This document shows positions 33,426-44,901 of a DNA stretch of 63,461 nucleotides, piece by piece. Within the stretch, counting starts at the first letter, position 1. Every line of letters begins with the position of its first letter. The notes under the pieces were generated by a model, which saw only the letters and a list, made by a program, of their open reading frames with translations, had not been told where the DNA came from and made no database searches. The stretch is taken from NCBI GenBank assembly GCA_022795855.1, contig JAAWHL010000002.1:1-63461 (forward strand), in the 5' to 3' direction. A program made the position numbers and the translations under genes. The DNA is from Lawsonibacter sp. (GTDB lineage Bacteria > Bacillota > Clostridia > Oscillospirales > Oscillospiraceae).

Positions 33426-33456
33426 CGAAAAAGTTTTGAAATTGAGGTGTACCACA

Positions 33457-33900
33457 ATGGACATGACCAATCAGGACTACGGCAAGCTGGTCAATCAGCG
33501 CTCCAAGCCCTCCCCCATGGGCAAAAATATGCTGTGCGCCTTTCTGGTGGGCGGCGCCATCTGCGCCGCCGGCCAGGGACTGCTCACCCTGTACAAAAAC
33601 TGGGGCCTGGACCAGGACGGGGCGGCGACCGCAGTGTCCGTCACGCTGATTCTGGCCGCCGCCCTGCTCACCGGCCTGGGATGGTTTGACAAGCTGGCAA
33701 AATTCGCCGGGGCGGGCACCCTGGTGCCCATCACCGGTTTTGCCAACGCCATGGTCTCCCCCGCCCTGGAATTCAAAAGCGAGGGGCTGATTACCGGCAC
33801 GGCGGTGAAGCTGTTTACCGTAGCGGGGCCCGTGCTGGTGTTCGGCATCAGCGCCAGCGTCGTCTACGGGATGATTCTGTGCCTCTTCCGCCTGGCATAA
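33457..33900 (+). CDS. spoVAC: Stage V sporulation protein AC
   Basis: Membrane channel protein needed to move dipicolinic acid in sporulation and germination; SpoVAC is reported as mechanosensitive. 147 residues. The N-terminal YGKLVNQRSKPSP extension distinguishes it from the otherwise similar SpoVAE. About four membrane segments follow (AFLVGGAICAAGQGLLTLY is the first), with GAGTLVPITGFANAM in the middle as in the family. ATG at 33457 with GAGGTG upstream. In Bacillus it is part of a longer spoVA operon; here it stands alone between a candidate forespore promoter and a terminator. Confidence 0.9.
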   Translation: MDMTNQDYGKLVNQRSKPSPMGKNMLCAFLVGGAICAAGQGLLTLYKNWGLDQDGAATAVSVTLILAAALLTGLGWFDKLAKFAGAGTLVPITGFANAMVSPALEFKSEGLITGTAVKLFTVAGPVLVFGISASVVYGMILCLFRLA

Positions 33901-33956: not shown

Positions 33957-34883
33957 TCAGATCAGGCCGAGCTGCCTGCGCACGTAGTTCTCCAGGTGAA
34001 TCAGGCTTTCCACCTCGCCCTTGGCGTTTTTGTCCAGCTTGGCACAGTCGTTGCTGCGGGCAAAGACGCTCATGGGCACACCGGCCAGCTGGTGATGATA
34101 CTTGCCGTTGCAGGGCCAGACGCGCATCTCAATCATGGCGGCGGCGGTGAGGAAGTCGGCCACCAGACGGGCCTTCTCGGGGTCGGAGTCCTTGTGGTCG
34201 AAGCACCACTTGTACAAATCAGGGTGGAGGTTGGCCATCACGCCGTTGTAGCCGGCGGAGCCGTGGCAGTAGCTGTCGAACCAGGACTGGGCGTTGGCGT
34301 TGAAAATCTTCAGCGGAGTGCCCTCCACAGCCTTCAGCCGCTCCCGAATCAGCTCGTAGTCGCAGCAGGTGTCCTTCAGGAAGACCATGCGGCCCTTGGG
34401 GGCCACCGCCTTCAGGAAGTCCAGGGAGACCAGGCGCTTCCAGGGCATGGGGCACTCATAGATGCCGAAGTCAATCTCCGGGAACCGGTCAAAAATCTCC
34501 TGGGCGTTCTTCAGGAAGACCTCCTCGCCCTCGTGCTTCTGGTCCAGGCGGTTGGAGACCAGCACGTAAGCACCGATGCCGGGAATCTTCATCATGTTCT
34601 CGATTTCCCGGAACTGGGTGGGCTTGTCGTCGGCGGTGTGTCCGGAGGCCACTACCTGGATGCGGCCGCCCACCGCCTCGGTCACGGCCTTGGCGATGTC
34701 CAGCTTCTCCTGCTCGCTGAGGAAGGCCATTTCGCTGGACTGGCACACGGCGAAAATACCGGTGCAGCCCTTCTCGATGTACCAGTTGCACAGGCCCTCA
34801 ATGGCCTTGTAATCGGGTTTGTTGTCATCCGTCCAGGGGGTAATCATAACGGGCCAAACGCCGGGCGCAATGGAAAAAGCCAT
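33957..34883 (-). CDS. Dihydrodipicolinate synthase/N-acetylneuraminate lyase family aldolase
   Basis: 308-residue class I aldolase barrel. The Schiff-base Lys is in MVFLKDTC (near residue 170) and the helper Tyr in DFGIYECP (near 140); the pyruvate-binding GHTADD replaces the usual G-TGS-T region, so it is a divergent member. Such enzymes cleave or make 2-keto-3-deoxy acids, including sialic acids. It is the last gene of a TRAP transporter string (dctP, dctQ, dctM) under an IclR regulator, so it probably splits the acid that the transporter imports into pyruvate and an aldehyde. A plain biosynthetic DapA is unlikely in this context. Confidence 0.85.
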   Translation of the reverse strand: MAFSIAPGVWPVMITPWTDDNKPDYKAIEGLCNWYIEKGCTGIFAVCQSSEMAFLSEQEKLDIAKAVTEAVGGRIQVVASGHTADDKPTQFREIENMMKIPGIGAYVLVSNRLDQKHEGEEVFLKNAQEIFDRFPEIDFGIYECPMPWKRLVSLDFLKAVAPKGRMVFLKDTCCDYELIRERLKAVEGTPLKIFNANAQSWFDSYCHGSAGYNGVMANLHPDLYKWCFDHKDSDPEKARLVADFLTAAAMIEMRVWPCNGKYHHQLAGVPMSVFARSNDCAKLDKNAKGEVESLIHLENYVRRQLGLI

Positions 34884-34920
34884 ACTATTCTCTCCTTCAA
34901 AGTTTTTTGGGGGAACCCAA

Positions 34921-36258
34921 TTACATCATACCGAACATCTGGGGCAGGAACAGCACCGACTGGGGGATAAAGGTGATAATCAGCAGCACCAGAAGCATGA
35001 CCACAATCGGCGCCCAGATTTCCCTGATAACGTCCTTCAGCGGGGTGCCGGAGATGCCGGAGGTGATGAACAGGCACATGCCGAAGGGCGGGGTGGACAG
35101 GCCCAGCATCATATTGAAGACGATAATCAGGCCGAAGTGAATGATGTTCACCCCGAAGGACTGGGCCACGGGCCACAGGATGGGAATCATAACCAGCTGG
35201 ATGACAGAGGTATCCACGAACATGCCCAGCACCAGGATGATTACGTTGACCATCAGCAGGAACACAACCTTGCTGTCGGTGAAGCCCCGGATCCAGTCGC
35301 CCAGGCGCACGCCAATCTGCTCCTTGGCGAAGATGAAGGAGATGGCGGAGGCCGCGCCAATCATGATGGACACGTTGCCGGTGCCCTTCACGGTGTCCAT
35401 CAGCACCTGCTTCAGGCCCTTCCAGTCCAGGATGCGGTAGACCAGGATGGCTACAATCAGGGAGTAGAATCCGGCAATGGCGCCCGCCTCGGTGGGGGTC
35501 ATGACGCCGGTATAGATGCCCACCAGCAGGATGACGGGGGTGAGCAGGGCCCAGATGGCCTTGAACACATAGCGCAGATAGGCGCCCAGCGCGGGAGGCA
35601 TGGACTTGGGGTAGTGGCGCCTGCTGGAGATGATGGCGATGTAAATGCACAGGCCGACGGCCAGAATCACGCCGGGCATCATGCCTGCCATAAACAGGGC
35701 GCCCACGGACGCGCCGGTGAGCATGGAGTAAATGACGGCGGGGATGGAGGGCGGGAAGATGGGGCCGATGGTGGCGGAGGCGGCGGTAATGGCGCAGGAA
35801 AAGCCGTCGTCATAGCCCTCGGCCCGCATGGCGTCAATCTCCATCTTGCCCAGGCCGGAGGCGTCGGCCACGGCGGACCCGGTCATGCCGGAGAAGACCA
35901 GGGAGGCCAGCACGTTCACGTGGGCCAGGCCGCCGGGGAAGCGGCCCACCAGGCCCTTGCACACGCCGAATACGTACTCGGTGATTTTGCCGGCGTTCAT
36001 CACATTGGCGGCAAATATGAACAGGGGGACGGCGATGATGGTCTGGTTGGTAAAGATGGCCTCAATGCTCTTCTGGGCCACCAGATGGAGCTGGCCCTCC
36101 GAGCCGGTGACCATGCCGAAAAAGCTGTTGCCCTTCACCAGCCCGTCCATCAGGAAGTACATGGTGCAGGCGGCAATCATGCCGGTGGGGATGGGCATCC
36201 GCAGCACAAACATCAAAATGAAGCAGATCAGGAACACAATCAGAGGCAGGTTGCTCAT
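34921..36258 (-). CDS. TRAP transporter large permease subunit (DctM)
   Basis: 445 residues, about 12 membrane helices; forms the sodium-coupled translocation unit with DctQ. Family motifs include VNVLASLVFSGMTGSAVADA and IGPIFPPSIPAVIYS. Its ATG shares the sequence TAAATGAG with the DctQ stop, so the two are coupled. It belongs to the first TRAP locus (34-38 kb), and the aldolase gene follows 37 nt after it. Confidence 0.93.
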   Translation of the reverse strand: MSNLPLIVFLICFILMFVLRMPIPTGMIAACTMYFLMDGLVKGNSFFGMVTGSEGQLHLVAQKSIEAIFTNQTIIAVPLFIFAANVMNAGKITEYVFGVCKGLVGRFPGGLAHVNVLASLVFSGMTGSAVADASGLGKMEIDAMRAEGYDDGFSCAITAASATIGPIFPPSIPAVIYSMLTGASVGALFMAGMMPGVILAVGLCIYIAIISSRRHYPKSMPPALGAYLRYVFKAIWALLTPVILLVGIYTGVMTPTEAGAIAGFYSLIVAILVYRILDWKGLKQVLMDTVKGTGNVSIMIGAASAISFIFAKEQIGVRLGDWIRGFTDSKVVFLLMVNVIILVLGMFVDTSVIQLVMIPILWPVAQSFGVNIIHFGLIIVFNMMLGLSTPPFGMCLFITSGISGTPLKDVIREIWAPIVVMLLVLLIITFIPQSVLFLPQMFGMM

Positions 36259-36864
36259 TTATTTGTCCCCCTTTCCGCCGTAGTCAATATGATTCAAATC
36301 CAGCTGCTCCTGGGCCAGAGACTCCTCAATGGCAATCTCGGCCTCGGACTTGGACTCGGCCAGCATTTTGTCAATATATTTCTGGTCGCCCTTCAGCACC
36401 ATAATCTCCTCGTAGATATCCATAATGGCATACACGGCGATAATGGCCAGGAAGAGGACATAGGGGGCAAACACATAGGCCTTCTGCCACTTGAGCACGC
36501 TGGTCAGCTGGGCGCGCTCCAGCTGGCCGATGATGTACTTGGCGGAGGGCATCAGGGTAATCAGGCAGGCGAAGGTAATCAGAATATTGCCCAGCATGGC
36601 GGTAATGGCCTTGCCCTTCACCTTCAGGCTGTCATACACCAGAGTGAAGGTGACGTGGCCCTTGACCCGCTGAGCATAGCAGGCGCCCAGCAGCACCAGC
36701 CACAGGAAGCAGGACTGCTCCACCTCGGCAGTCCAGGCCTGGGGATTTTTCATGACATAGCGCATAAATACCTGGAAAACGAAAATAACAAACAGCACGA
36801 CAAAGGCTATCATCGGAATATACATTTCCACGCATTCGCGGATGAATGCACCGACTTTCTTCAT
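36259..36864 (-). CDS. TRAP transporter small permease subunit (DctQ) with long cytoplasmic tail
   Basis: 201 residues. Four membrane helices cover about residues 10-155, with the signature AWTAEVEQSCFLWLVLLGA. The remaining 45 residues are hydrophilic and acidic (SKSEAEIAIEESLAQEQLDL), a longer tail than the usual 160-170-residue DctQ. ATG at 36864 follows AAGGAGCGGAAAGC. An in-frame ATG at 36882 is possible but has no clear site. A hairpin and a repeat copy lie between it and the upstream dctP. Confidence 0.9.
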   Translation of the reverse strand: MKKVGAFIRECVEMYIPMIAFVVLFVIFVFQVFMRYVMKNPQAWTAEVEQSCFLWLVLLGACYAQRVKGHVTFTLVYDSLKVKGKAITAMLGNILITFACLITLMPSAKYIIGQLERAQLTSVLKWQKAYVFAPYVLFLAIIAVYAIMDIYEEIMVLKGDQKYIDKMLAESKSEAEIAIEESLAQEQLDLNHIDYGGKGDK

Positions 36865-36908
36865 GCTTTCCGCTCCTTTCACACAAGCTGTCCCCCCCCC
36901 TTCTCTGC

Positions 36909-36951
36909 AAAAAAGGGGATGAAACAGGGGGCCGGGACCTTCCCGGCCCCC
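36909..36951 (-). terminator. Partial terminator between dctP and dctQ of TRAP locus 1
   Basis: GGGGGCCGGGA (36927-36937) with TCCCGGCCCCC (36941-36951); on the minus strand six U follow after about 12 nt. Such a site would let more dctP than permease mRNA be made, as is usual for binding-protein genes. Confidence 0.55.
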
Positions 36952-36989
36952 CGCAGGGTTCCTCGTTTCTCTGAAAAAGCGCCGAATTT

Positions 36990-37180
36990 AAGATCCTGTA
37001 TTCACAACCTCAAACGCACGCCTGGGCGGGCCTTTTCCCGCCGTACTGTGTTCCATTTTCTTGGAATATCCCATGGTCCTTAGCGGTTCCACCGCTTAGA
37101 CCCATGGCCCCCCCCTTGCGGGGACACGCGGAAAAATTCCTCACCCAGGCGTCATTTTCGGTTATGAATACAGGTTCTAA
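36990..37180. repeat. Interspersed hairpin repeat, copy H (type 2, with insertion)
   Basis: Begins AGATCCTGTATTCACAACC and ends GGTTATGAATACAGGTTCT, an inverted terminal pair. GGGCGGGCCTTTTCCCGCC and CATTTTCTTGG are shared with copy G. In the centre an extra hairpin (CCATGG at 37071 and 37102, around TTAGCGG/CCGCTTAG) resembles the insertion in copy B. It ends 7 bp past the dctP stop and fills most of the 323-bp dctP-dctQ gap. Confidence 0.75.
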
Positions 37181-37187
37181 GTAAAAA

Positions 37188-38282
37188 TCAGGCCATATCC
37201 TGAATCTGCTTCAGCAGGTCCTTGTCCCAGCTGTCGGAGATGGGGTCGCTCAGATAGGTGTTCAGAACATGGTCGGCGAAGGCGGCCACGTCGGCCTCGT
37301 AAATCTTCAGGCCCTGCTCCTTCAGGAAGTCCTGAACCTCGGACTCGGTCTTCAGGTTCTGCTCGTCACAGGCCTTGCGTCCGGCCTCAACAGCCTCCAG
37401 GACCCAGTTCTTCTGGGTGTCGGTCAGCTTGTTCCAGGTATTCACGTTGATGGTGGGCCACACGGAGTCAACCAGGTGGTTGGTCAGGGAGATGGACTTC
37501 TGAACCTCGTAGAACTTGGCGGACTGCACGGTGGGCAGGGGGTTGTCCTGGCCGTCCACAGCGCCGGTCTGGAGAGACAGGTACAGGTCGTTGAAGGCGA
37601 TGGCGGTGGGGTTGGCGCCCATGGCCTTGCCCAGGAACACCCAGGCGTCGGAGTTGGGCATACGCAGGTTGACGCCGTTCAGGTCAGCGGGGACCTTAAT
37701 CTCCTTGTCGGCGGACAGGGAGACCTGACGGGTGCCCAGGTAGTAGCAGCCCAGAGGCAGGATGCCCTGCTCCTCGGCCACGCGCTGGAAGACCTGCTTG
37801 CCGATGTCGCCGTTCATGACCGTGGTCATGTGGTCATAGCTCTGGAAGACATAGCCGGCGGTGAACATGGAAATCCAGGGGGAGCCGTCGGTCAGCCAGG
37901 AGGCGGAGGAGTAAATCATGTCCACGTCGCCGTTCTTGATGGCGTCGGTCTCGGTGTCCTGGCCGTACAGGGTGCCGGAGTCATAGCACTCCACGGTCAT
38001 GTTGCCCCCGGAGATGGACTCCAGGGTCTCCTTGAAGACCTTCTGGGCCGCGCCGTGGGCGTCGGTGGGGACGGCGGCGATGGAGAACACCAGGTTGACG
38101 GGGTCGCCCACGTCGCTGCCGTTGGCAGGGGCGGAGGCGGCGGGGGCGGTGCTGGGGGTGGAGGCGGCAGGGGTGGAGCCGGCGGGGGTGCTGGAGCTGG
38201 GCTTGCTGCCGCAGCCGGCCAGCAGACCCGCCAGCATGGCGCCGCCCAGGGTCAGGGTGAGTGCACGTTTCCAATTGTTCAT
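37188..38282 (-). CDS. TRAP transporter solute-binding lipoprotein (DctP)
   Basis: 364 residues. A signal peptide with lipobox LLAGCGS makes it a membrane-anchored lipoprotein, followed by a low-complexity Ser/Thr/Ala/Pro linker (about residues 25-55). The DctP fold has NLRMPNSDAW with the substrate-clamping Arg and LQTGAVDGQDNPL, both typical for carboxylate-binding members. It is the first transporter gene after iclR. GGAGG precedes the ATG at 38282. The substrate is presumably a sugar acid given the aldolase and YhcH neighbours (inference). Confidence 0.92.
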   Translation of the reverse strand: MNNWKRALTLTLGGAMLAGLLAGCGSKPSSSTPAGSTPAASTPSTAPAASAPANGSDVGDPVNLVFSIAAVPTDAHGAAQKVFKETLESISGGNMTVECYDSGTLYGQDTETDAIKNGDVDMIYSSASWLTDGSPWISMFTAGYVFQSYDHMTTVMNGDIGKQVFQRVAEEQGILPLGCYYLGTRQVSLSADKEIKVPADLNGVNLRMPNSDAWVFLGKAMGANPTAIAFNDLYLSLQTGAVDGQDNPLPTVQSAKFYEVQKSISLTNHLVDSVWPTINVNTWNKLTDTQKNWVLEAVEAGRKACDEQNLKTESEVQDFLKEQGLKIYEADVAAFADHVLNTYLSDPISDSWDKDLLKQIQDMA

Positions 38283-38351
38283 TTCTGTGATCCTCCTATC
38301 AAAATTGGTTGCTGATTATTTCCACGGCCCGGGGGCCGTCAGAAATCCTTA

Positions 38352-39119
38352 TTACCGGTAAATCCGGTCCCGCATCTTCATGGCGGCGCTTTGCAGAATG
38401 CCGGCGCACTCCAGCAGCTTCCCGTCGGTCATGGTCATGGAGGGGCCGGCGGTGCTCAGCCCCGCCACCAGCTGCCGGTTGGCGCTGTACACCGGAACGC
38501 CCACGCAGCGCACGTCCGGATCCCGCTCTACATTGTCGATGGCGTAGCCCCGGCGGCGGGTGCGGCGCAGCTCCTCCAGGATGGCGTCCAGGTCCGTGAT
38601 GGTGTTGGGCTGGTAGCTCTTCCGCTGCTCGGGAATGTGCTTCAGCCACTCCTCCTCCGGCATGTAGGCCAGTATGGCCTTGCCGATTCCGGTACAGTAG
38701 AAGGGGGCCGTCTCCCCCAGGATGTCCCGGTAGGGCAGCACCCCGAACCGGTTGACCGGATGGGCTACATAGAGATACAGCACGCTGGTGCCGTAGGGCA
38801 CCCCGAAATAGACAATCTCGCCGGTTTTGCCCGCCGTATCCACCATGATGTCATAGATTGCGTTGGGATAGCCCAGGTGCTGGTTGATGATAAAGGCGTA
38901 CTCCAGCATTTTCAGCCCCAGCGTGTACCGTCCGTCGGGCAGGCGCTCTAAGTACCCCATGCTCTGAAAGGTGGAGAGAATATTGTGGATGTTGGACTTG
39001 GTGACCCCCATCCGCTCCGCCAGCTCGGTGACGCCCAGCTCCGGCTCCTGCACGGTGAAGCAGGAGAGCACCCTCAGCGCCTTGGCCAGGGATTTTACCT
39101 TCGGCGTCTGCTCCTCCAT
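38352..39119 (-). CDS. IclR family transcriptional regulator
   Basis: 255 residues. An N-terminal winged HTH (LGVTELAERMGVTKSNIHNIL) and a C-terminal effector domain (from about 80) with GKAILAYMPE and GYAIDNVERDPDVRCVGVPV, standard for IclR proteins, which usually bind a small acid. It lies 69 nt upstream of dctP in the same direction and is divergent from the YhcH gene. GGGAGG precedes the ATG at 39119. Two similar 17-bp palindromes in the divergent gap are the likely operators, one in its own leader. Confidence 0.9.
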   Translation of the reverse strand: MEEQTPKVKSLAKALRVLSCFTVQEPELGVTELAERMGVTKSNIHNILSTFQSMGYLERLPDGRYTLGLKMLEYAFIINQHLGYPNAIYDIMVDTAGKTGEIVYFGVPYGTSVLYLYVAHPVNRFGVLPYRDILGETAPFYCTGIGKAILAYMPEEEWLKHIPEQRKSYQPNTITDLDAILEELRRTRRRGYAIDNVERDPDVRCVGVPVYSANRQLVAGLSTAGPSMTMTDGKLLECAGILQSAAMKMRDRIYR

Positions 39120-39133
39120 GGCGGCCTCCCTTC

Positions 39134-39150
39134 GTTCTCTATAAAAGAAC
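39134..39150. promoter_or_regulatory. Candidate IclR operator 1
   Basis: GTTCTCTATAAAAGAAC, a palindrome (GTTCT/AGAAC) in the leader between the iclR promoter and start codon. Nearly the same sequence recurs at 39266. Confidence 0.55.
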
Positions 39151-39170
39151 AGCTTTCTCCTTTTGAGTTT

Positions 39171-39199
39171 ATTATATAAAACGCTCGGAAAAGATGCAA
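39171..39199 (-). promoter_or_regulatory. Promoter of iclR and the TRAP locus
   Basis: TTGCAT (39199-39194), 17-nt spacer, TATAAT (39176-39171) on the minus strand. Confidence 0.75.
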
Positions 39200-39265
39200 G
39201 ACCCCAAAAATTTTTCGGCGTTATTCCAAAAGGCGCCCTGGAAACACCCGGGTTTCCAGCACGAC

Positions 39266-39282
39266 GTTCTCTATTAAGAAAC
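39266..39282. promoter_or_regulatory. Candidate IclR operator 2
   Basis: GTTCTCTATTAAGAAAC, matching operator 1 at 14 of 17 positions. It is about 40 bp upstream of the YhcH promoter. Confidence 0.5.
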
Positions 39283-39323
39283 ATCGCCCCCTAAATTTTG
39301 GAGCGCGCAAGGGATTGCGCCTC

Positions 39324-39375
39324 TTGCGGCCGCCCGGCGTTCACGGTATAATGAAACTGCTCCGCCGGGCGGCCG
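39324..39375 (+). promoter_or_regulatory. Promoter of the YhcH gene inside a 13-bp inverted repeat
   Basis: TTGCGG (39324-39329), 17-nt spacer, TATAAT (39347-39352). CGGCCGCCCGGCG (39327-39339) and its exact complement (39363-39375) bracket the -10. Confidence 0.65.
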
Positions 39376-39433
39376 TCCGGCGGGAAAAACAAGAAAACGC
39401 GGCCTGTCCGGGACCGCGGGAGGAGACTGCGCT

Positions 39434-39880
39434 ATGATTTTTGACAGCTTGAAAAACATGGACAACTACAAGGGAATCCCCCGGATTTACCGGGCGCTGG
39501 AAATCATCCGGGACACCGATTTCTCCCGGCTGGAGGACGGCACCTACGAGGTGGACGGGTTCGGCTTCCGGTACATGCTCCAGTCCTACACCGCCGAGAA
39601 GGACAACGACCGCCCCGAGGCCCACCGGGAGTTTATCGACGTGCAGTATCTGATTTCCGGCAGGGAGCGCATGGGCGTCGGCCTGGTCTCCGACATGACC
39701 GAGGAGGTGGAGGCCCGCCCCGAGGGGGATATCTGGTTCTACCGCGGCCCGCTGGACTCCATCACCCTTCAGGATGACCGCTTTGCCGTCCTCTTCCCCA
39801 ACGACGCCCACGCGCCCGGCATCGTCCCCCCGGAGGGCCCTGCGGCCGTGCGCAAGTGCGTCTTCAAAATTCATGTATGA
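39434..39880 (+). CDS. YhcH/YjgK/YiaL family protein (DUF386)
   Basis: 148 residues, single cupin-like domain. Recognised from MIFDSLKNMDNYKG, HREFIDVQYLISGRE and LFPNDAHAPG, with the conserved metal-binding His and Glu residues. Family members sit in sialic-acid (nan) and other sugar-acid operons and are thought to act on sugar anomers. It is divergent from iclR and the TRAP-aldolase genes, which supports a sialic-acid-like or other ulosonic-acid pathway. Nothing else in the window tells which one: no nanE, nanK or sialidase gene is seen. Confidence 0.9.
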   Translation: MIFDSLKNMDNYKGIPRIYRALEIIRDTDFSRLEDGTYEVDGFGFRYMLQSYTAEKDNDRPEAHREFIDVQYLISGRERMGVGLVSDMTEEVEARPEGDIWFYRGPLDSITLQDDRFAVLFPNDAHAPGIVPPEGPAAVRKCVFKIHV

Positions 39881-40077
39881 CTGCTGAAAAATTGTAAAAA
39901 CGCGGAAAATCTCCGTTTCCATTTTCTGTCCCCTTGCCGGGCGGGCTTTTTCACTTTTTCCATGGAAAAGGTGGAAGGTCCGCCCACGTTTTTTCCCGCC
40001 CGGACTGGCTATAATGAATTTGCGGGGAGCCGCAGGGCTTTTCGCGGGAAAAAATGGAAAACTCAGGGGGTGGAATT

Positions 40078-41208
40078 ATGGAACAAGACACAAAACACAG
40101 GCCTTGGGCGCTGCTGCCGGCGGGGGCGGCGCTGCTGCTGGGGCTGGCGCTGACCCTCCTGCTGGCACGGGACGGCGTTCAGGCCGCCTCCGGCGCGGTG
40201 GTGCTGCAGCTGCCCAGGACGCCCGCCGCCGCCGCGCCCGCCGCGCTGGAGACCGGCAGGAAGGTAGTGCCTCTGGGCCGGGCCGTGGGCATCAAGCTGT
40301 TCTCCAACGGCGTTCTGGTGGTGGGCCTCTCCGATCTGGAAACCTCTGCCAGCACGGTCAGCCCCGGCCGGAGCTGCGGGCTGAAAACCGGCGACATCAT
40401 CACCCACATCAACGCCCAGGAGGTGGACACCATTGAGCAGGTGCAGGCCATCGTCACCCAGGACGGCGGCCAGCCGCTGATTCTCCAGGTGGACCGGGGA
40501 GGCCGGTCGCTTCAGCTGTCCGCCCAGGCGGTGCAGAACAATCAGGGCGTCTACCAGCTGGGCGTATGGCTGCGGGACTCCATGGCCGGCATCGGCACCA
40601 TGACCTATTATGACCCGGACAGCCGCACCTTCGCCGCTCTGGGCCACGGCGTCAACGATGTGGACACCTCTCTGCTGATGCCGCTGGAGACGGGCAGCAT
40701 CATGTATGCCTCCGTCTCCGACGTGAAGCGGGGAACCGCCGGCGAGCCCGGGGAGCTCCACGGGAATTTTGACGTATACCGGGACCTGGGCATTCTGTAC
40801 GCCAACACCCAGACGGGCATCTACGGCGTGCTCAGCGGCAGCGACTTTGACACCGGCTCCCCGGCGGTGGAGATTGCCTCCCGGGATCAGGTAAAGGTGG
40901 GGCCCGCCTCCATTCTGTCCAACATCGACGGGGAGGCCGTGGAGGAGTACGCCGTGGAAATCACCCACGTCTACCCCGCCGCCGCCGGGGAGACCCGCAA
41001 CCTGATGGTCCAGGTCACAGACCCGGAGCTTTTGGAAAAAACTGGAGGAATTGTCCAGGGCATGAGCGGCTCGCCCATCCTTCAGGACGGACGCCTGGTG
41101 GGGGCGGTGACCCACGTGCTCATCAACGATCCGACCCGCGGATACGGGATTTTAGCGGAAAATATGGCCGCCCAGACCGGACGGGAGGAGCAGGCCGCCG
41201 TGTCGTAA
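40078..41208 (+). CDS. spoIVB: SpoIVB peptidase
   Basis: Serine protease (family S55) secreted by the forespore that triggers sigma-K activation in the mother cell. 376 residues. One N-terminal membrane helix (about 10-30) is followed by a PDZ domain (about 80-155, CGLKTGDIITHINAQEV) and the protease domain with GHGVND (His) and GMSGSPI (catalytic Ser near residue 330). The ATG at 40078 has GGGGGTG upstream; an ATG 24 bases earlier lacks a site. A TATAAT near 40011 may be its -10. It precedes spo0A, as in nearly all endospore formers. Confidence 0.95.
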   Translation: MEQDTKHRPWALLPAGAALLLGLALTLLLARDGVQAASGAVVLQLPRTPAAAAPAALETGRKVVPLGRAVGIKLFSNGVLVVGLSDLETSASTVSPGRSCGLKTGDIITHINAQEVDTIEQVQAIVTQDGGQPLILQVDRGGRSLQLSAQAVQNNQGVYQLGVWLRDSMAGIGTMTYYDPDSRTFAALGHGVNDVDTSLLMPLETGSIMYASVSDVKRGTAGEPGELHGNFDVYRDLGILYANTQTGIYGVLSGSDFDTGSPAVEIASRDQVKVGPASILSNIDGEAVEEYAVEITHVYPAAAGETRNLMVQVTDPELLEKTGGIVQGMSGSPILQDGRLVGAVTHVLINDPTRGYGILAENMAAQTGREEQAAVS

Positions 41209-41287
41209 CGTAGAAGAAACGGGTCGGAATGTTGAAATTCGTCGGCAATTGTTGGAAAATAAAATACCATTTTTTGGCAAAAACATC

Positions 41288-41333
41288 TTGCGTATGCTGT
41301 CTGATTATGATAAATTATAGACGACCGGTCGAA
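41288..41333 (+). promoter_or_regulatory. spo0A promoter with possible 0A box
   Basis: TTGCGT (41288-41293), 17-nt spacer, TAAATT (41311-41316). GGTCGAA (41327-41333), one base off the 0A box TGTCGAA, lies just past the expected start site. Autoregulation is possible. Confidence 0.5.
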
Positions 41334-41380: not shown

Positions 41381-42142
41381 ATGGAATTGACAAAACGTAT
41401 CCTCATCGCAGACACTGGGGAGGAATTTCGCCGGGGCTTTATCGAAAATCTGGACAGCGAACCCGATATCCAGGTGGTCGGCGAGACCGGCGACGGAGAA
41501 GAGCTGCTGCGCATGGTGCGGGAAAAGCAGCCCGACCTTGTGGTCATGGAGATTGTACTGGCAAAAATCGACGGCATCGAGGTGCTGGAACAGCTGTCCT
41601 CCATGGAGCTGGAGCGCCGGCCAAAGGTCATTATCCTGTCCGGCTTTGCCAAGGGCAGCATGGCCCAGCTGGCCGCCGACAAGGGCGCGGACCACTATAT
41701 GACCAAGCCCTGCCGGGTGAGCACCGTATGCGAGCGAATCCGCCAGCTGACCGGAAGCAGCCATCTGGAGGACGACCGGGACCGCTCCCGCACCCTGGAA
41801 AGCATGGTGACCGCCATCATTCACGACGTGGGCGTCCCGGCCCACATCAAGGGCTATCAATACCTGCGCGAGGCGATCCTGATCGCGGTGGCTGACATGG
41901 ACGTCATCAACGCCGTGACCAAGGTCCTCTACCCCGAGGTGGCCAAGCGGTTCAATACCACCGCCAGCCGGGTGGAACGGGCCATCCGCCACGCCATCGA
42001 GGTGGCCTGGGACCGGGGCGACCTGGAGACCCTTCAGAAATATTTCGGCTACACCGTCTCCAACGTGAAGGGCAAGCCAACCAACAGCGAGTTTATTGCC
42101 ATGATTGCCGACCGGCTTCAGCTCCAGCAGAAAGAGCTGTGA
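41381..42142 (+). CDS. spo0A: Sporulation master regulator Spo0A with altered phosphorylation site
   Basis: 253 residues. The C-terminal DNA-binding domain (from about 145) is highly conserved: [18 protein letters not shown] is the recognition region and [17 protein letters not shown] follows. The receiver domain is unusual. The acidic pocket reads IADTGEE where Bacillus has two adjacent Asp, and the phospho-acceptor Asp is replaced by Glu57 in [14 protein letters not shown] (codon GAG at 41549-41551). Ser87 (for Thr) and Lys109 (MTKP) remain. The normal phosphorelay could not phosphorylate this site; Glu may mimic phosphate. Downstream a terminator ends the unit. Start ATG follows AGAAAGGGAG. 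Confidence 0.94.
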
Positions 42143-43197: not shown

Positions 43198-43426
43198 ATC
43201 TGTCTCATCCTCCGCATTTTCGATACGTCCGCGCCGGGCCGTGCTTTGAAAAAGTACTGTCCGGCGCGAAAGAATTTCTGGAGGTTCCATCCGCACAGTA
43301 GTATGTGAGGCCCGAACCGGATTATAACCGGAAAAAAGGAGCAGAACCGCCGGTTTTTTACAAAATGCGCACAGGGCCTGTCCTATAATAAAAATACAAA
43401 AAATGGAAAATCAAGGAGGAGAGTCC

Positions 43427-43732
43427 ATGGCCATCACATGCAGCGAATCCGAGCGCTGTCTGAAAGCCGCCATCAGCGGAGAGCTGGACCACCACCACGC
43501 CCGGCAGGTAATGGAGGAGCTGGACCGGCAGATTGACGCCGCCCTGCCCCGCCGGCTGATCCTGGACCTGGAGGGGCTGGCCTTTACCGACAGCTCGGGC
43601 ATCGCCGTGCTGATCCGCGCATTCCGCCGGATGGGACAGCTGGGCGGCGAGGTGTCGGTGTGCAACGTCCCGGAGCAGGCCCGCAAGGTCTTCTGCGCGG
43701 CAGGCGTGCAAAAGCTGATACGCTTTGAATAG
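43427..43732 (+). CDS. spoIIAA: Anti-sigma F factor antagonist SpoIIAA
   Basis: Releases sigma F in the forespore when dephosphorylated. 101 residues, STAS fold. The phosphorylated Ser is in FTDSSGIAVL (Ser57 aligned to Bacillus Ser58). AAGGAGGAG lies five bases before the ATG at 43427. A TATAAT at 43384-43389 may be the -10, but no clear -35 or sigma-H element was recognised. It starts the three-gene sigF operon; 12 nt to spoIIAB. Confidence 0.95.
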   Translation: MAITCSESERCLKAAISGELDHHHARQVMEELDRQIDAALPRRLILDLEGLAFTDSSGIAVLIRAFRRMGQLGGEVSVCNVPEQARKVFCAAGVQKLIRFE

Positions 43733-43744
43733 GAGGAGATACAT

Positions 43745-44188
43745 ATGAAAAAAGCGGAAAACTATACTACGCTGACCTTTCCCAGCCGCTCGTCCAACGA
43801 GGGCTTTGCCCGGGCGGCCGCGGCCTGCTTCGCCGCCCAGCTGGACCCCACCCTGGATGAGCTGAACGATGTGAAGACGGCGGTGAGCGAGGCGGTGACC
43901 AACGCCATTGTCCACGCCTACCCCGACTGTCTGGGGAAAATTTCCATGCGGCTGTCCCTGGGGGAGGACCACAGCCTGGAGATTGTAGTGCGGGACTGGG
44001 GCGTGGGCATCCCCGACGTGGCGCAGGCCCGCCAGCCCCTGTACACCACAGGGAGCGAGGAGCGCTCCGGCATGGGATTCACCATTATGGAGAGCTTTAT
44101 GGACCTGCTTCGGGTGCGCTCCCAGCCGGGGAAGGGGACCACCGTCACCATGCGCAAGCGTATCTCCCGCCGGGCAGGCGTCCAATGA
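43745..44188 (+). CDS. spoIIAB: Anti-sigma F factor SpoIIAB
   Basis: Binds and inhibits sigma F, and phosphorylates SpoIIAA. 147 residues with the GHKL ATPase motifs: N box VKTAVSEAVTNAIVHAY, G1 VRDWGVGIPD and G2 ERSGMGFTIME. AGGAGGAG precedes the ATG at 43745. Its stop overlaps the sigF start by four bases (ATGA), which couples their translation and balances inhibitor and sigma factor. Confidence 0.96.
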   Translation: MKKAENYTTLTFPSRSSNEGFARAAAACFAAQLDPTLDELNDVKTAVSEAVTNAIVHAYPDCLGKISMRLSLGEDHSLEIVVRDWGVGIPDVAQARQPLYTTGSEERSGMGFTIMESFMDLLRVRSQPGKGTTVTMRKRISRRAGVQ

Positions 44189-44901
44189 GCGGGGGCGTCT
44201 CGGCGCCGGAGGTACTCCAGGCCGCACGGGAGGGGGACAACCGGGCCTGCGAGCAGGTGCTGGAGGAAAACAACGGCCTGATTTGGAGCGTGGTCCGCCG
44301 CTACTACGGGCGGGGCGTGGAGCCGGAGGACCTGTACCAGCTGGGCTGCCTGGGATTCCTGAAAGCGGTGCGGGGCTATGATCCCGCCTTCGGCACCCAG
44401 TTTTCCACCTACGCCGTCCCCAAAATCGCCGGAGAAATCCGGCGCTTTCTGCGGGACGACGGGGCGGTGAAGGTAAGCCGGGCGCTGAAGGAGCGGGGGG
44501 TGTCCGTGCGGGCCACCCGAAGCCGCCTGGCCGCCCGCCTGGGCCGGGACCCTACCCTGTCCGAGCTGGCGGAGGAGACCGGGCTGGATCCGGAGGAAAT
44601 CGCCGCCGCAGAGACGGCCACCGACGCGGTGGCCTCCCTCCAGGCGGAGGCGGGGGAGAGCGGCCTGACCCTGGAGGGCCTGCTGGGCAGCGGGGGCATG
44701 GAGGAGGCGGTGGTGGAGCGCCTGACCCTCCACGCCGCCATGGATAGCCTTCCCGAGCGGGAGCGGCAGGTGCTGCTGCTGCGCTACTACAAAAATCTGA
44801 CGCAGACCCAGTCGGCCAAGGTCATGGGCGTGTCCCAGGTCCAAATCTCCCGGCTGGAGCGCCGGGCCGTGGACCGCCTGCGGGAGCTTTTGAAGGAATA
44901 A
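44185..44901 (+). CDS. sigF: RNA polymerase sigma-F factor (forespore)
   Basis: First forespore-specific sigma factor. 238 residues, sigma-70 class 3. Region 2 has DLYQLGCLGFLKAVRGYDP and FSTYAVPKIAGEIRRFLRDDG; region 3 RDPTLSELAEETGLDPEEI; region 4 HTH ERERQVLLLRYYKNLTQTQ and GVSQVQISRLERRA. Promoter recognition therefore should match GYATA-type sites such as the one before spoVAC. Last gene of the operon; no intrinsic terminator was seen in the 55 nt that follow. Confidence 0.95.
   Translation: MSGGVSAPEVLQAAREGDNRACEQVLEENNGLIWSVVRRYYGRGVEPEDLYQLGCLGFLKAVRGYDPAFGTQFSTYAVPKIAGEIRRFLRDDGAVKVSRALKERGVSVRATRSRLAARLGRDPTLSELAEETGLDPEEIAAAETATDAVASLQAEAGESGLTLEGLLGSGGMEEAVVERLTLHAAMDSLPERERQVLLLRYYKNLTQTQSAKVMGVSQVQISRLERRAVDRLRELLKE

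Follow-up and report, generated by a model that had tools for sequence, protein, structure and literature searches.

According to PMC11210211 and PMC3533761, sporulation of endospore formers begins when Spo0A is activated through phosphorylation of a conserved Asp. The window, which is the whole 63,461-nucleotide stretch of Lawsonibacter DNA analysed here, encodes a Spo0A with Glu at that position, and the question is how such a protein could be controlled. The original prediction offered two answers: a Spo0A locked in an active-like state by a phospho-mimic Glu, or one that is regulated by how much of it there is or by some other signal, with no classical phosphorelay. Genus, family, order and class refer below to Lawsonibacter, Oscillospiraceae, Oscillospirales and Clostridia. 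The gene, its domains and its active-site residues are as follows:

41381..42142, + strand: spo0A, 253 aa; TIGR02875 equivalog match of 299.7 bits (cut-off 200)
41399..41743, + strand: receiver domain; PF00072 Response_reg match of 71.7 bits, over cut-off
41411..41416, + strand: Asp11-Thr12, codons GAC ACT; DD1 kept, DD2 (direct metal ligand) lost
41549..41551, + strand: Glu57 at the phospho-acceptor position, codon GAG
41558..41563, + strand: Leu60-Ala61, replacing Met-Pro (D+3, D+4) in the alignment
41639..41641, + strand: Ser87, the conserved switch Ser/Thr, from the translation and the family rows
41705..41713, + strand: Lys109-Pro110-Cys111; Lys kept, Cys at K+2 where Phe is usual
41807..42118, + strand: Spo0A_C DNA-binding domain; PF08769 match of 154.8-156.7 bits, over cut-off

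The window Spo0A matches the TIGR02875 profile over its full length and over the curated cut-off, and its nearest relative is 86% identical. The DNA-binding domain is intact, which bears out the original prediction: Spo0A_C scored over its cut-off, and a fold search returned the 1lq1 and 1fc3 chains with 58-65% identity to it. The receiver fold is predicted to be intact as well. Alignment with the receivers of B. subtilis and other Spo0A proteins placed Asp10/Asp11 of B. subtilis at Asp11/Thr12 and Asp56 at Glu57, and it confirmed every residue that had been predicted (Glu57 encoded by GAG, Thr12, Leu-Ala for Met-Pro, and the retained Ser87 and Lys109). By translation, alignment and codon, the phosphorylatable Asp is absent from the receiver, with Glu57 in its place, and the acidic Mg2+ pair DD1-DD2 is incomplete, reading Asp11-Thr12. 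DD2 is the residue that binds the metal directly (PMC12632262). Like bacterial pseudo-receivers and aspartate-less receivers, the protein lacks two of five active-site residues (D and DD2, with DD1, T/S and K present), and both D-to-E and DD2 loss are common changes described for that group. It is a pseudo-receiver twice over by the definition in PMC12632262, by which its Asp57 relatives are pseudo-receivers too, and it has the make-up given for aspartate-less receivers in PMC4395418, namely a receiver fold with the acceptor Asp replaced. To judge from its sequence, the window protein is Spo0A by descent and domains and would fail the phosphorylation features that define how Spo0A works.

The original prediction had named an Asp codon at position 57, or a second spo0A with an intact Asp in the same genome, as grounds for giving it up. 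The codon at 41549-41551 reads GAG and neither GAC nor GAT, and sequencing error is a very unlikely source of Glu57 because 44 of the 65 rows from the genus, the window included, carry it. The window's own assembly, with 2.50 Mb in 127 contigs and a completeness of 93.08%, contains no second full-length Spo0A; a hidden intact copy within it was rejected, the sole other Spo0A_C match there being a 129-aa protein without a receiver. That protein is encoded on contig C31 (L002:1435-1824, - strand). Small receiver-less Spo0A_C proteins are common across the genus and might be competitors for 0A boxes. In one genome (G001) there are 12 Spo0A_C matches, and five of these are equal-scoring 119-aa frames that may belong to a repeated element. 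Two genomes (G170 and G065; loci L206 and L388) combine a Glu57/Pro12 Spo0A with a second full-length Spo0A elsewhere, which has an intact site and is 34-36% identical to the window protein.

Active sites in the family and beyond

Spo0A matches were found in 61 of the 64 genomes searched from the genus (over cut-off), 171 of 200 from the family (at E 1e-40), 131 of 147 from the order and 88 of 118 from the class, and active-site typing covered part of these matches only. The family is represented by 174 rows, made up of 154 (65 from the genus, window included) and 20 low-scoring ones among the matches listed. The named GTDB loci were the best 80 of at least 587 relatives and include MAGs and isolates labelled Oscillospiraceae, Flavonifractor, Pseudoflavonifractor, Lawsonibacter and Oscillibacter.

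Position 12 (DD2) was acidic in none of the 174 family rows, and position 57 held Asp in 117, Glu in 57 and no other residue, the loss of DD2 being equally complete in Asp57 and Glu57 rows. Glu57 is the majority residue in the genus and occurs outside it in 11 of 89 family rows from 8 genera, and in 2 of the 20 low scorers. On these counts the family-wide change is the loss of DD2 rather than Asp-to-Glu. The original prediction, which had asked whether D-to-E is conserved in the clade, took D-to-E as its title; Asp and Glu are mixed in the family, and the change that does run through it had been recorded there as Thr12.

Other parts of the site differ in how well they are kept. Asp11 and Ser/Thr87 each occur in 153 of the 154 family rows and Lys109 in 152, whereas Pro at D+4 occurs in 41 (100% of canonical class rows) and Ala at T+1 in 34 (90% of canonical class rows). 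Across 212 family and named rows, Leu60 reaches 98%, Cys111 90% and Arg17 81%, against Met (96%), Phe (76%) and Cys (58%) at these positions in the 50 canonical class rows. The kept residues bear on the idea that phosphorylation is altered, with DD2-less Asp57 members still phosphorylated, or the protein modified elsewhere, and the Glu forms being local losses. The conservation of Lys109, Ser/Thr87, Asp11 and the K-3 aromatic resembles that of working receivers, which counts against a pseudo-receiver, and because of these residues weak phosphorylation of the Asp57 members would be compatible with the rows. Against this idea stand the absence of DD2 from all family rows and the scarcity of Pro at D+4 and Ala at T+1, and we consider it quite improbable.

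Among 72 distinct sequences from other families of the order, position 57 held Asp in 50, Glu in 11, Asn in 7, Ser in 3 and Gly in one, and position 12 held Asp in 22 and Glu in 14. The 60 class sequences from outside the order, which include one paralogue, had Asp (56), Glu (2), Asn (1) or Ser (1) at position 57 and Asp at position 12 in 52; the first 30 of these loci were top scores, which favours canonical receivers, and the other 30 were picked from lower scores. On this sampling the canonical site is therefore the background, and the order has many separate departures from it.

Recurrence and selection at position 57

A tree was built from 216 distinct rows, taken from the family and the named loci (some of the latter possibly from neighbouring families), and 7 outgroup rows, with columns 12 and 57 left out. 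Parsimony placed 18 changes at position 57 on this tree, every one between Asp and Glu, with Asp at the root (17 changes once four outlying rows were removed, and 55 on average with shuffled labels). At equal costs these were 14 gains of Glu, one of them in a sequence outside the family (L157), and 4 reversals; under other costs the extremes were 7 gains with 13 reversals and 22 gains, and because this split shifts with the costs, the direction of single changes is uncertain. Independent Asp/Glu pairs numbered 10 on well supported branches and 18 on all branches, and the 382 tests for residues that co-change with Glu57 on such pairs are used here for the pair counts only. The codons at position 57 were GAT (80), GAC (73), GAG (48) and GAA (15). 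An Asp codon has eight non-synonymous single-base changes, two of which give Glu; because it is only these two, free drift is an unlikely source of so many changes with none to another residue. That Asp and Glu replace each other in a single context argues for selection that keeps a carboxylate here, and neither a phosphate nor specifically a phospho-mimic.

The same tree bears on the active-like lock, according to which Glu57 is a true phospho-mimic, the Asp57 relatives are still phosphorylated and the Glu lineages are controlled by amount only. Glu is the commonest substitute in aspartate-less receivers (26%; PMC4395418) and can partly activate many response regulators (PMC4395418, PMC12632262), the would-be binders of the mimic, Ser/Thr87 and Lys109, are kept in 62 Glu rows, and Asp-to-Glu arose 14 times at equal costs when no other residue arose. 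However, DD2 is lost as completely where Asp57 remains, Asp-to-Glu alone is reported as insufficient in CheY, PhoB and Spo0A (PMC4395418, citing Green 1991), and every reversal to Asp (4 at equal costs, 2 to 13 or none otherwise) would switch regulation wholesale. Glu as the sole on-state lock is hard to square with a position at which Asp and Glu interchanged about 18 times, and this half of the original prediction is thereby weakened to the point where we regard it as unlikely.

Median omega over 46 pairs of family and named rows was 0.128 in the receiver and 0.0165 in the DNA-binding domain, compared with 0.054 and 0.019 over canonical pairs (only 7 pairs) and 0.07 and 0.016 over 5 non-canonical pairs of other families. 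The family receiver is under purifying selection and is constrained less than the canonical one, with omega about twice as high. Such a twofold rise would be expected if the clade were losing sporulation and Spo0A were decaying or serving another role, but the DNA-binding domain is as constrained as in canonical pairs and receiver omega is far below 1; simple decay of Spo0A was not favoured, given these values.

Partners, 0A boxes and sporulation genes

Spo0E was counted as PF09388 (Spo0E-like, Spo0A~P phosphatase family) over cut-off. It was found in none of the 64 genus genomes (five weaker matches lie within frames of 662-722 aa), in none of the 147 order genomes (two weaker matches) and in 37 of the 118 class genomes. 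In the 59 class genomes with typed receivers, Spo0E accompanied 32 of 49 canonical and 0 of 10 non-canonical receivers (Fisher 1.3e-4, kinship ignored), or 18 of 29 and 0 of 7 when counted per family (p 0.008, kinship ignored); the other 5 class genomes with Spo0E fall outside this comparison. The absence is not specific, because Spo0E is also missing where receivers are canonical, both in 17 of the 49 class genomes and throughout the order sample, canonical-site members included. As it is absent across that whole sample, Spo0E may have been lost first.

In the window's own genome, 21 matches to HisKA were found, 20 of them over cut-off, along with 37 receiver matches, of which 36 were over cut-off. 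A kinase was taken as an orphan if no receiver lay closer than about 2.7 kb on its contig. On this basis there are one non-hybrid orphan kinase of 515 aa (C57) and four hybrid kinases (C5, C12, C46 and C100), and C43 carries a kinase fragment that lies at its stretch's end and, by eye, resembles KdpD. The suggestion that orphan sporulation kinases might be missing is therefore not supported. The orphan and hybrid kinases speak for altered phosphorylation, and the lack of Spo0E over cut-off in the genus and order samples speaks against it.

The window contains the following further features related to sporulation:

33436..33900, + strand: spoVAC, a late sporulation gene; TIGR02838 match of 166.1 bits (cut-off 164)
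40054..41208, + strand: spoIVB, upstream neighbour of spo0A; TIGR02860 match of 361 bits, over cut-off
41230..41256, + strand: three imperfect 0A boxes in 10-bp phase (TGTTGAA, CGTCGGC, TGTTGGA)
41288..41316, + strand: promoter-like TTGCGT-17-TAAATT upstream of spo0A, found by eye and similar in relatives
43403..44901, + strand: spoIIAA-spoIIAB-sigF, early forespore control, by profile matches

In 44 of 64 genus loci, the roughly 240 bp upstream of spo0A contain an exact 0A box (mean 2.2 and largest 7 in shuffles), and the other 20 have none there; some loci have tandem boxes 10 bp apart. The boxes of the window have 6 mismatches in 21 positions, which 20 of 2000 shuffles equalled with a pattern chosen after the relatives had been seen. 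Exact TGTCGAA has two matches in the window, both away from spo0A, against 3.85 expected, and a looser pattern has 43 against 18.2 expected, a number reached by no shuffle; this excess may reflect A/T-rich stretches. The DNA-binding side and an amount-based feedback route look intact, and feedback through the 0A boxes would be positive. Exact boxes were present at 32 of 43 loci with Glu57 and 10 of 19 with Asp57, which does not clearly separate the two groups and is a further point against the phospho-mimic.

Among the genes at 43403-44901, spoIIAB exceeded the cut-off of TIGR01925, and spoIIAA and sigF had TIGR02886 and TIGR02885 as best matches, under their cut-offs. SpoIIE of the own genome matched profile positions 2-763 of 764, under cut-off, and 54 of 64 genus genomes had SpoIIE matches at E 1e-20, all under cut-off. 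That SpoIIAA, SigF (43403-44901) and SpoIIE (contig C82) all fall under strict cut-offs points to early sporulation proteins that are divergent in the clade. The same three results would fit a clade that is losing sporulation, as would the 3 of 64 genus genomes without a full-length Spo0A match over cut-off. Reports on relatives lean the same way: O. valericigenes was spore-free in tests despite having Spo0A and the full set of sporulation sigma factors (PMC3558957), Oscillibacter has been termed asporogenous (PMC3533761) and Intestinimonas massiliensis non-spore-forming (PMC6341035), and 15 apparent non-spore-formers with Spo0A have been counted (PMC6136694). On the other side, the spo0A reading frame is intact, spoIVB, spoIIAB and spoVAC score over their cut-offs, SpoIIE is matched over nearly its whole profile and most loci have kept their 0A boxes, and we hold a clade that is losing sporulation, with its Spo0A decaying or in another role, to be improbable. 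Between spoVAC and spoIVB, at 33957-39880, TRAP transporter genes lie together with those for an IclR-type regulator, a dapA-like aldolase and a YhcH-like protein, perhaps as a sialic acid or sugar acid locus.

The explanation that we favour, with modest confidence, is a family-wide pseudo-receiver Spo0A that would work without the usual phosphorylation, keep a carboxylate pocket for its fold or dimer and act mainly by amount. An ancestor would have lost DD2, the Asp directly holding the Mg2+ needed for phosphotransfer, and the acceptor position would afterwards only have had to remain a carboxylate, drifting between Asp and Glu. The window Spo0A would then not be switched by Asp phosphorylation. 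Asp11, Glu/Asp57, Ser87 and Lys109 would make up a fixed pocket by which the receiver stays folded or able to dimerise, by analogy with GlnR and RamR, in which the D residue serves dimer formation and not phosphorylation (PMC12632262). A fixed carboxylate at D, as in these actinomycete proteins, would explain the Asp/Glu exchange seen here. Their output domains differ from that of Spo0A, and their regulons do as well. Phe at K+2 biases CheY toward the inactive state (PMC12632262), and its replacement by Cys may ease the active conformation; a redox switch at Cys111, present in 143 of 154 family rows, was also considered, and the published role of K+2 gives a simpler conformational reading. Spo0A activity would follow the level of the protein, which feedback via the 0A boxes of its gene would raise, and the signal would enter at transcription, stability or a partner protein. 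The second half of the original prediction, control by amount or another signal, gains support from the loss of DD2 in all family rows, Asp57 rows included, from the absence of Spo0E over cut-off in genus and order and from the 0A boxes of most genus loci. Besides the conserved residues already named, the remaining orphan and hybrid kinases, the imperfect boxes of the window, the 20 genus loci that lack an exact one, the unspecific absence of Spo0E, the raised receiver omega and the relatives reported as not spore-forming count against a pseudo-receiver acting by amount.

Comparison with known receivers

With canonical Spo0A of B. subtilis and clostridia, the window protein shares domain order, equivalog score, a predicted receiver fold, a DNA-binding domain with about 60% identity to those of solved structure and, at most genus loci, 0A boxes at its own gene. 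It differs in that the acceptor Asp, DD2 and Met-Pro are gone, K+2 is Cys instead of Phe, and its own genome has no Spo0E over cut-off. ChxR of Chlamydia likewise has Glu at the acceptor position (PMC4395418) and is active without phosphorylation (PMC3960148), but it belongs to the OmpR/PhoB subfamily and not to sporulation. Compared with the pseudo-receivers and aspartate-less receivers described, what is affected here is the master regulator of sporulation, and in every family row read. Among the papers listed by title and abstract in searches of the open-licence literature, none describes a pseudo-receiver Spo0A; Spo0A is absent from the available text of PMC12632262 and appears in that of PMC4395418 only as D-to-E mutants. 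Pseudo-receivers are known, and a pseudo-receiver Spo0A that runs across a family is apparently new to this literature.

More tentatively, and at a little under an even chance, we propose that in the whole family and much of the order sporulation starts with a Spo0A that never undergoes phosphorylation on Asp, a pseudo-receiver controlled by concentration or partners having replaced the switch after Spo0E was lost, with the acceptor since drifting repeatedly (Asp, Glu, Asn, Ser, Gly). If this is true, these gut Firmicutes have replaced the Spo0A~P switch that is regarded as universal among endospore formers, and neither searches for kinases nor predictions of sporulation that rest on the Spo0A~P model hold for the family. 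It would also offer a tractable natural series for how pseudo-receivers turn on and off, with one orthologous regulator in Asp and Glu forms, about 18 exchanges, the 0A box as operator and spores as output.

Further degenerate receivers than that of the window occur in order families f3, f4, f9, f14, f16 and f18, in which the acceptor is Asn, Ser or Gly, or Lys109 or the acidic pair is replaced (loci L252, L269, L302, L270, L272, L394 and L303). The Spo0A of L157, a Bacillota MAG, has its Asp pair intact and Glu at the acceptor, the reverse order of loss.
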